Program-made: the position numbers and the translations under genes | Notes under the pieces: model-generated | What the model saw: the letters and a program-made list of their open reading frames with translations, nothing else | Databases searched by the model: none | What the model was told of the DNA's origin: nothing | Shown: positions 5,601 to 7,895 of the stretch, piece after piece | Layout: every line of letters begins with the position of its first letter | How positions within the stretch are numbered: position 1 is the stretch's first letter | Origin: Solirubrobacteraceae bacterium | GTDB taxonomy: Bacteria > Actinomycetota > Thermoleophilia > Solirubrobacterales > Solirubrobacteraceae | DNA length: 7,895 nucleotides | Assembly (NCBI GenBank): GCA_024710825.1 | Contig: JANJUA010000107.1 | Location: 1 to 7,895 of the forward strand | Reading direction: 5' to 3'

Positions 5601-7895
5601 ATGGCCACGTGCGTTGTCACGGGCGGCGCCGGCTTCCTGGGGTCGCATCTGTGCGACGAGCTCCTCGCTCGCGGGCACCGCGTGATCTGCGTCGACAACC
5701 TGGAGACGGGCTCGCTCGCGAACATCGCGCACATCCGGCGGCCCGAGTTCACGCACCTCAACGTCGACATCACCGACCCGTACTTCGTCGACGAGCCGGT
5801 GGACGTCGTCTACCACCTCGCGTCGCCGGCGTCGCCGATCGACTACCTGCGCCTGCCGCTGCACACGCTGAAGGTCGGCTCCTACGGGACGCACCACACG
5901 CTCGGCCTGGCGAAGATCCACCGCGCCCGCTTCCTGCTCGCGTCGACCAGCGAGGTCTACGGAGACCCGCAGGTGCACCCGCAGCCGGAGTCCTACTGGG
6001 GCCACGTCAACCCGATCGGCCCCCGCGGCGTCTACGACGAGGCCAAGCGCTACGCCGAGGCGCTGACGATGGCCTACCACCGCCAGCAGGGCGTGGACAC
6101 CTCGATCGTCAGGATCTTCAACTCGATCCTCGCGGACGAGCAGGTGCTCTACGACAACGGCGTCGAGCTGTGCCGTGAGCGCGTCAGCGACCTGGCGGCG
6201 CGTCACGCGGACTTCGCGGTGAGGGCCGGGTACCTTCCGCGCACGCCGTCGGCCGGAGCGACGGCGCTGCTCGACGATCGCTTCTCGGCCGCCATGGAGT
6301 ACGACCTCCGGGGTCACACGGTGCCGGCGTTCGACGCCGACGGCCATATGGTCGCCGCGGAGACCAGCTCGCTCGTCGCCCACCCCACCGACGAGCGCTG
6401 CTACGAGGTGCGGACCCGCTACGGCCGGTCGATCCGCGTCACCGGCCATCACTCGATCTTCGTCGAAGGCAACGGCGGTGCTCCGGTCGCGAAGCCGGTC
6501 GAGGATCTGTGCGTCGGCGAGCGGGTGGCCATCGCCGGCCGCATCGACGTGCCCGAGCGCGACCGCCGCTGGGTCAGCATGATCGACGCGTGGCGGTACG
6601 CCGAGGGCGATCCGTGGGATCTGCTCGTTGAGGCGCCGGGGCTGGGCGAGCTGGTCTGGAGCCGACGCTTCGAGCTGCACGGCGTCCTCGTGGCCGAGCG
6701 GCGCAACGCAGGACCGAACTGGCGCAACGGCGCATGGACGAAGCTCCTGCGCATGCGCGACAGCGACCGCGTGCCGCTCAGGCTGCTCTGGCGCGTCGGC
6801 GAGGCCGTGCCCGAGGATGCTCGCGTGCGGCTGCGCACCACGGGTCGCAGCGTGCCGATGCGCTCGCGCGTGGAGATCACGGACGACGTGCTCTGGCTCC
6901 TCGGGCTCTACGTCGCCGAGGGCTGCTGGCAGGAGGGCGCCGGTCGCGCGTTCGTGACCCTCAGCGCCGACGATGCGCTGCTGCGGCGCGCGCGGAAGAT
7001 CGTCGAGCGCGACCTGGGCCTGCACACCGTGTGGGCCGACGGCTCCGAGCGGCGCTCGGCCTCCCTGGCCGTCCACTCGAAGCTCCTGCTCACGCTCCTG
7101 CGCCGCCTGGGGTTCGACGACGGCGACAAGCGCATCCCGGGCTGGATCCTCGGTCTGCCGCTCGACCGGCTCAAGTGGTTCGTCGAGGGTTACCGCGAGG
7201 GCGACGGCGTGCACTCGGGCGCCAAGGTGGGCGTCCGGCACGAGTTCTCGACCACGAGCGACGACCTCAAAGACGACCTGATCGTGGCGTTCGCCCGCTT
7301 CGGGCTCGTGCCGTCGGTCGGGCGCTACGTCTACGAGGGCAACCGCTTCTGGCGGCTGACGCTGTCCGCGGTGTCCCCCTGGAGCCCGCTCGAATGGGAC
7401 GGCGAGGTGTCGCAGCGTCTCAACGCCCGTCGGTCGGGCGATCTGGTCTGGGCGCAGGTGACCGACATCGTCGAGGTCGACCCCACGGAGCTGGTCTACG
7501 ACTTCTCCGTCCCCGGGCTGGAGAACTTCTGGGCGGGAAGCGGCGTGATGGCGCACAACACCTACGGGCCGAGGATGCGCCCGCACGACGGCCGCGCGAT
7601 CCCGACGTTCCTGCGTCAGGCCCTCCAGGACCGGCCGCTGACCGTATTCGGCGACGGCAGCCAGACGCGCTCCTTCTGCTATGTCGACGACCTCGTCGAC
7701 GGGCTGATCCGGCTCATGAACGTCGATGGCGACGTGATCGGACCGGTCAATCTCGGCAATCCGCATGAGATCAGCGTGCGCGAACTCGCCGAAACCATCA
7801 TCGAGCTGACCGGCTCGCGCTCGGCGCTCGATTTCCGCCCGCTGCCGGCCGATGATCCCCGGCAGCGTTGTCCCGATATCGGGCGCGCCTCCGAG
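5601..7895 (+). CDS. UDP-glucuronate decarboxylase-like NAD-dependent epimerase, interrupted by an intein (3' partial)
   Basis: A single frame of 765 codons runs from ATG 5601 past the window end. With the intein (precursor residues 175-653) removed, the exteins read as a short-chain dehydrogenase/reductase of the UXS type, which makes UDP-xylose from UDP-glucuronate in the cytoplasm for surface polysaccharides. The N-extein (1-174) has the NAD-binding GGAGFLG (G8, G11, G14), HLASPASPIDY, ASTSEVYGD, ESYWGHVNPIGPR and the catalytic Y145-x3-K149. The C-extein (654 on) begins TYGPRMRPHDGR and has LTVFGDGSQTRSFCYVDDL. The HPQPESYWGHVNPIGPR and DGSQTRSF segments are far closer to UXS than to RmlB or GalE, but a related NDP-sugar epimerase is not excluded. 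The protein can only be active after splicing, since the intein separates the cofactor domain from most of the sugar-binding part. The last 57 codons use more A/T-ending codons than the rest. No stop is reached within the window. Confidence 0.92.
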   Translation, partial: MATCVVTGGAGFLGSHLCDELLARGHRVICVDNLETGSLANIAHIRRPEFTHLNVDITDPYFVDEPVDVVYHLASPASPIDYLRLPLHTLKVGSYGTHHTLGLAKIHRARFLLASTSEVYGDPQVHPQPESYWGHVNPIGPRGVYDEAKRYAEALTMAYHRQQGVDTSIVRIFNSILADEQVLYDNGVELCRERVSDLAARHADFAVRAGYLPRTPSAGATALLDDRFSAAMEYDLRGHTVPAFDADGHMVAAETSSLVAHPTDERCYEVRTRYGRSIRVTGHHSIFVEGNGGAPVAKPVEDLCVGERVAIAGRIDVPERDRRWVSMIDAWRYAEGDPWDLLVEAPGLGELVWSRRFELHGVLVAERRNAGPNWRNGAWTKLLRMRDSDRVPLRLLWRVGEAVPEDARVRLRTTGRSVPMRSRVEITDDVLWLLGLYVAEGCWQEGAGRAFVTLSADDALLRRARKIVERDLGLHTVWADGSERRSASLAVHSKLLLTLLRRLGFDDGDKRIPGWILGLPLDRLKWFVEGYREGDGVHSGAKVGVRHEFSTTSDDLKDDLIVAFARFGLVPSVGRYVYEGNRFWRLTLSAVSPWSPLEWDGEVSQRLNARRSGDLVWAQVTDIVEVDPTELVYDFSVPGLENFWAGSGVMAHNTYGPRMRPHDGRAIPTFLRQALQDRPLTVFGDGSQTRSFCYVDDLVDGLIRLMNVDGDVIGPVNLGNPHEISVRELAETIIELTGSRSALDFRPLPADDPRQRCPDIGRASE
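6123..7559 (+). mobile_element. Intein with LAGLIDADG homing endonuclease, inserted in the UXS gene
   Basis: This 479-residue in-frame insertion splits the UXS motif RIFN/TYGPRM. Block A is S1-ILADEQVL. Block B is TGHH (T107 to H110, the TxxH motif). The endonuclease has block C LLGLYVAEG (259-267), block D KRIP (336-339) and block E FVEGYREGDG (353-362). Block F is VYDFSVPGLENFWAG (458-472) and block G is GVMAHN, with penultimate His478 and terminal Asn479. The next extein residue is Thr. Known intein chemistry then predicts N-O acyl shift at Ser1, transfer to the Thr, Asn cyclisation and ligation of the exteins. Both LAGLIDADG motifs keep an acidic metal ligand (Glu in the first, Asp in the second), and the frame is intact, so splicing and homing may both be active. 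The stretch between blocks A and B is longer than in compact inteins. By-eye codon use resembles the host gene, with no sign of very recent arrival. Confidence 0.95.

Follow-up and report, generated by a model that had tools for sequence, protein, structure and literature searches.

A probable class 1 intein with a LAGLIDADG endonuclease in a UDP-glucuronate decarboxylase gene of a Solirubrobacteraceae bacterium

The DNA analyzed here (the window) is a stretch of 7,895 nucleotides from a Solirubrobacteraceae bacterium (assembly GCA_024710825.1, contig JANJUA010000107.1), in which a gene for a UDP-glucuronate decarboxylase (UXS) type enzyme is interrupted by an insert of 479 residues. The insert is very probably a class 1 intein that carries a homing endonuclease of the LAGLIDADG type. 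It is predicted to excise itself from the UXS precursor by protein splicing, and it likely spreads by homing into empty copies of the gene. At the level of sequence, this assignment has its basis in several observations: the insertion is exact and in frame, the splicing residues are invariant and the endonuclease acids conserved, empty alleles occur both in this assembly and in the genus, the spread is patchy, and synonymous divergence (dS) is higher in the intein than in the host for the pairs compared.

The UXS frame starts at ATG 5601 on the forward strand, on which all features described here lie, and stays open until contig C367 ends at 7895. The precursor consists of 174 UXS residues ending in VRIFN (the N-extein, residues 1–174, positions 5601–6122, containing the NAD-binding part with the YxxxK motif), followed by 479 residues running from SILADEQ to VMAHN (6123–7559, Ser1 to Asn479), and then by TYGPRM. 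A preliminary description of this DNA had placed a full-length intein of 479 residues in a UXS-type protein at this position, and the frame and the Pfam domains bear it out to the base. The insertion lies exactly between RIFN and TYGPRM, as also claimed there, according to both the reading of the frame and an intein-free allele from the same assembly (C316). The two kinds of profile that had been suggested as a check score above their cut-offs: Intein_splicing (PF14890) has 55.2 bits against a cut-off of 35.8, and LAGLIDADG_3 (PF14528) has 23.4 bits, just above its cut-off of 22.5 and with no single stretch passing alone. Homologues and matches to solved structures and folds agree with this identification. 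The insert is found between RIFN and Thr in 120 of the 120 homologues listed (of 971 matching clusters), which excludes a chance location. Intein-free homologues reading RIFNTYGPRM, which had been set as a test, were found, C316 among them, and the insertion is not universal among homologues. We collected 31 intein-free UXS loci, 30 of which have the uninterrupted site pattern; the 31st reads RIFNTYGIRM. One intein-free congener (L042, in G364) reads RIFNSYGSRM, in which position +1 is naturally Ser.

The host exteins match the Pfam Epimerase family (PF01370, E 2.5e-46). Among solved epimerases, the top match of the host is human UXS1 (E 2.6e-96), with the next different enzyme at 3e-35, and the catalytic Tyr145 and Lys149 of the YxxxK motif are invariant in 86 sequences. 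The host is thus predicted from sequence to be a UXS-type enzyme that makes UDP-xylose. Human UXS1 (2b69, 4gll), which belongs to the same family, has RIFNTFGPRM at the insertion site and contains no intein. The site is a conserved UXS motif, with the catalytic half (YxxxK) of the enzyme on one side and the C-terminal half on the other, and because the insert splits these two halves, the precursor should be inactive until splicing.

The AlphaFold model of the precursor resembles the intein PI-PkoII plus human UXS1, and the PI-PkoII match to the model has a Foldseek E of 2.5e-26. PI-PkoII (2cw7) is the best match among solved structures in both sequence and fold. It shares the LAGLIDADG endonuclease and a histidine at the place of His87, but it has an Arg before that histidine where the window has Ala, and the identity is 20%. 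PI-PkoII is the same as PI-TkoII of a Thermococcus DNA polymerase; its host is an archaeal DNA polymerase, unlike UXS.

Conservation was assessed on a family alignment of 252 rows, made up of the window, 11 loci, and two protein searches with 120 matches listed from each (of 971 and 833 matching clusters). Intein blocks A, B, C, E, F, and G, noted earlier from the sequence, could all be located on alignments. Block A begins with Ser1 (6123–6125), the predicted first nucleophile, which occurs in all 250 rows reaching the position. His87 (6381–6383), at the NX-motif position and aligned with the Arg-His histidine of PI-PkoII, is found in 252 of 252 rows, as are both Thr107 and His110 of the block B motif TGHH (6441–6452). 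The first LAGLIDADG motif (block C, WLLGLYVAEG, 6894–6923) has its acid at Glu266, with Glu or Asp in 246 of 252 rows; the PF14528 stretch starts later, at the second motif (block E, WFVEGYREGDG, 7176–7208), whose acid, Asp361, is Asp or Glu in 249. Block F (VYDFSVPGLENFWAG, 7494–7538) contains Asp460 in every row and has Glu467 where many inteins carry His (249 of 252 rows, with His in two and Gln in one). Block G (7554–7559) consists of the penultimate His478, present in 149 of 252 rows, and the terminal Asn479, which, like the Thr+1 that follows, is invariant. Cys93 (6399–6401), within the intein, is invariant as well (252/252), though both splice junctions rely on Ser and Thr alone. Because of this junction chemistry, the intein may yield splicing tools that need no junction cysteine.

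Class 1 inteins usually have a penultimate His, which is not essential, and the window intein keeps His478. The assignment to class 1 follows from the in-frame insert with uninterrupted homologues, Ser1, the block B Thr and His, Asn479, Thr+1, and the Hint fold, and the two motifs with acids Glu266 and Asp361 point to a LAGLIDADG homing endonuclease. Class 2 and class 3 mechanisms are ruled out by Ser1 and Asp460: a class 3 intein has no position-1 nucleophile and has Cys at F:4, and here these positions are Ser1 and Asp460. Inteins with Ser1 and Ser+1 or Thr+1 have a special histidine that is invariably preceded by Arg or Lys, as stated in an excerpt of PMC10189870. A histidine upstream of block B is present as His87, and the residue before it is Ala in 143 rows, Gly in 108, and Glu in one; since neither Arg nor Lys occurs there, we do not file the intein under the canonical NX motif.

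In the mechanism proposed for splicing, Ser1 would attack the RIFN–Ser bond to form an ester, Thr+1 would take over the N-extein, and cyclization of Asn479 would release the intein, after which an acyl shift would give UXS ligated as RIFN–TYGPRM. The endonuclease would be expected to cut the RIFN|TYGPRM DNA, and repair from the intein-bearing copy would then insert the intein. The host would be a tolerant carrier rather than a regulated switch.

A second contig, 9637 bases in length, encodes the same precursor (protein P0001), with an identical N-extein, a single change in the intein (Asp to Glu at position 284), and an ordinary UXS C-terminus. The chimeric look of the contig end after 7682 might raise the thought that the insertion itself is an assembly chimera. 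With the same precursor on another contig and an insert at the same site in 240 of 240 homologous proteins listed, we give this explanation next to no credence. Beyond 7682, the window departs abruptly from both P0001 and C316. An ungapped count over 336 bases after the junction gives 137 differences from C316, of which 136 are at or beyond 7682. No close match to the UXS-like end of the frame (7682–7895) was present in the loci fetched. Because of the abrupt departure from both other copies, the last ~214 bases probably result from a misjoin in a conserved stretch where the contig ends; the intein is unaffected by it.

C316 (L083:1-649, in G000) is a partial intein-free allele, cut by the start of its contig. 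It has four mismatches to the window in the 223 bases before the junction (98% identity), none of them within 13 bases of the junction, and one in the first 122 bases after it, which are the genuine part of the C-extein (7560–7681, with Thr+1 first). Its protein is joined exactly as RIFN|TYGPRM, and the 74 residues before and the 42 after the junction are identical to those of the window. Either the population that was sampled contains both filled and empty alleles, or the bin combines two very close strains. The presence of an intein-free allele would also suit a dead, non-splicing intein, with the enzyme supplied by the empty copy. Such an explanation is extremely improbable in our view: Thr107, His110, Asp460, Asn479, and Thr+1 are invariant in all 252 rows, as is Ser1 wherever a row extends to it (250 rows), the window keeps His478, the two near-identical alleles have the look of alternatives at a single locus rather than of a gene pair, and carriers G077 and G246 each list a single UXS-like match at E≤1e-60.

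The distribution of the intein was surveyed across the class in 399 genomes, each from a different species, with a match threshold of E≤0.001. Some match was obtained in 23, of which seven (G000, G077, G246, G258, G029, G334, and G353, from three families) match the UXS intein allele strongly (E 2e-102 or better), two of these matches being partial or interrupted. The other 16 matches have E 7e-19 or weaker, and those that were read are inteins in different hosts, SufB for example. Of the 399 genomes, 321 have a UXS-like match at E≤1e-60, and the same-genus genomes G053, G318, and G364 have an uninterrupted UXS with 82–87% identity. A phylum survey found the intein in 8 of 396 genomes, three from the class and the rest in families f23, f25, and f44, the last with a single genus in which three of four genomes have it. 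As few candidates were scored per genome, 7/399 and 8/396 are lower bounds. The named carriers are all actinobacterial (Solirubrobacteraceae, Gaiellaceae, Ilumatobacteraceae, Euzebyales, and Acidimicrobiales). A scan of genome contigs with a single-sequence query found two loci, and a scan of viral contigs with two patterns only gave 72 pattern matches, none confirmed as a relative of the intein. In G353 (L015/L032), the intein is in one open frame, and two matches skip residues 184–241 of the window intein, a natural linker deletion.

The intein might instead be retained for regulation, as the preliminary description proposed, in the role of a post-translational switch controlling the UDP-xylose supply and the envelope polysaccharide. 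The position of the insert, which interrupts a conserved part of UXS, would suit a switch, as would a sugar transferase gene (PF02397) following UXS on C316 and, by reading only, in congener G053. The invariant Cys93 could act as a redox handle, and the penultimate residue, which affects the splicing rate of a phage intein (PMC5050341, in excerpt), varies in the UXS intein family. A switch is hard to reconcile with an intein present in just 7 of 399 class genomes (a lower bound), with an intein-free allele in the same assembly and three same-genus genomes searched that lack the intein, and with endonuclease acids conserved as for a mobile element. Given the patchy distribution and the intein-free allele, a mobile element fits better than gating, which we judge to be very unlikely.

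Divergence within the family is consistent with such mobility. In three within-genus pairs (L038, L039, and L040), dS is 1.0–1.4 in the three intein parts as compared with 0.39–0.67 in the exteins, and nonsynonymous divergence (dN) in the endonuclease part is 0.17–0.19. Between the window and G077, dS is 0.70–0.81 in the intein and 0.43 in the N-extein; the C-extein value of 0.54 includes the doubtful tail. Because intein dS is above extein dS in the compared pairs, the intein looks older or more travelled than the surrounding gene. The endonuclease looks to be under purifying selection. UXS trees with 10 filled loci and 28 empty ones (3 of the 31 empty loci, L048, L049, and L063, are left out) suggested that filled copies evolve faster. 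This reading was dropped because most empty rows had been chosen by their likeness to the window and the window tail is probably misjoined.

Several points weigh against a self-splicing, homing intein. Splicing and homing are inferred from features and known families. The count of 7 in 399 genomes is only a lower bound, from few scored candidates per genome. A dS above 1 is near saturation, and homogenization of the exteins could also raise the relative dS of the intein. Identities of intein and extein correlate (Spearman 0.65, 6000 pairs), so vertical descent plays a part too, and 9 of 252 rows (two of the nine being the same gene) have lost one endonuclease acid, so immobility is probable for some copies. 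Both alleles, empty and filled, are from a single binned assembly and may represent two strains or a contaminant, and the contig of P0001 may come from the same sample as the window. One apparently immobile copy is L040 (G679), in which the first LAGLIDADG motif reads YTAAG, with the acid lost and the splicing residues kept.

The penultimate position of the intein varies widely. It is His in 149 of the 252 rows, Lys in 69, Ala in 11, Arg in 7, Ser and Asn in 5 each, Leu in 2, and Ile, Val, Gln, and Thr in one each. Removal of rows with ≥95% identity in the intein leaves 245, with His in 144. Of the 103 rows without the penultimate His, 102 are also without the block F His. On a FastTree tree built without the penultimate column, we counted at least 24 switches between His and other residues over well-supported branches, and 37 on the best tree. 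The switch is seen in separate genomes, with Lys in G246 and G353 and Arg in G258. Excerpts of PMC5050341 describe the penultimate His as strongly conserved in actinobacterial inteins, and the block F His, common in inteins, as able to take over its role. In the same excerpts, the penultimate His of mycobacteriophage class 1 inteins is likewise inconsistent, some having Gly, Lys, or Ser; these inteins are in phage genes and have Cys1, whereas the UXS intein family sits in bacterial genomes.

As a control, we examined SufB inteins with a query from the same class (L016; 120 matches listed, from several phyla). Although SufB inteins are more diverse than the UXS intein family, the penultimate His is present in all 105 matches that could be scored among the 120 listed, and in 102 of 102 under a stricter pattern. 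At the block F position, the 102 matches of the stricter pattern have His in 58, Ala in 21, Glu in 16, Ser in 4, and Gly in 3. With His in just 58 of 102, a missing block F His alone is not unusual; as judged from the alignments, the unusual feature of the UXS intein family is the loss of both helper histidines. SufB inteins L016 and L017 are the nearest non-UXS inteins among the matches of the class survey that were read, with 32–34% identity over the endonuclease and C-terminal part, and some SufB inteins share ENF in block F with the UXS intein. They differ in having an iron-sulfur assembly host and, by reading, Cys1 and Ser+1. His-Asn is also the ending of the five other intein C-termini that were readable in the window's own genome (hosts read by eye as DnaE, DnaB twice, UvrD, and ribonucleotide reductase).

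No convincing residue that compensates for the loss of the penultimate His emerged from 1633 residue tests on tree-independent pairs. The best candidate, Cys at position 415, had 7.2 pairs against 1.0 in the opposite direction, of 24, which is unconvincing for 1633 tests. A tentative and rather doubtful idea is that UXS inteins have freed Asn cyclization from both helper histidines, that another helper is used, and that switches at position 478 dial the rate of UXS maturation. The family provides a natural experiment on the penultimate His, with hundreds of related sequences that vary at this position against a background of otherwise constant splicing residues. The repeated loss of this His in a chromosomal family that is also without the block F His is a point for specialists.

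An intein of Methanocaldococcus UDP-glucose dehydrogenase reportedly has an entry in InBase. Excerpts of PMC3322345 deal with inteins in other genes. According to excerpts of a 2018 review (PMC5874633), 62% of bacterial inteins are in replication, recombination, and repair proteins; this dominance of DNA-metabolism hosts supports the earlier view that a nucleotide-sugar epimerase is an unusual host. The window contributes a large intein allele whose host is a nucleotide-sugar enzyme and not one of the usual DNA-metabolism proteins, as well as empty and filled alleles of one gene within one assembly. A literature search with few subscription papers found no paper on an intein in glucuronate decarboxylase or in Solirubrobacter, and papers on inteins and NAD-dependent epimerases were off topic, judged by listing. 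Novelty as an observation is limited, as JGI names already label such proteins, many of those listed being called 'UDP-glucuronate decarboxylase' or 'nucleoside-diphosphate-sugar epimerase/intein/homing endonuclease'. The intein is an element of a known kind. The literature search found no printed description of an intein at this site or in this host, though annotation pipelines already name such proteins.

More inteins are present in the genome of the window (L001-L006, L008); their hosts, by reading, are DnaE, DnaB (with two in a single frame), UvrD, and ribonucleotide reductase. In G194, L018 has two successive inteins in one SufB frame, also by reading. The bacterial sugar transferase gene (PF02397) is downstream of UXS on C316, and a similar gene is beside UXS in congener G053 (by reading); this proximity fits a role in envelope polymers. 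Adjoining the UXS gene in the window, MoaD-type (ThiS family) and MoaE domains are fused in one frame (4830–5456).
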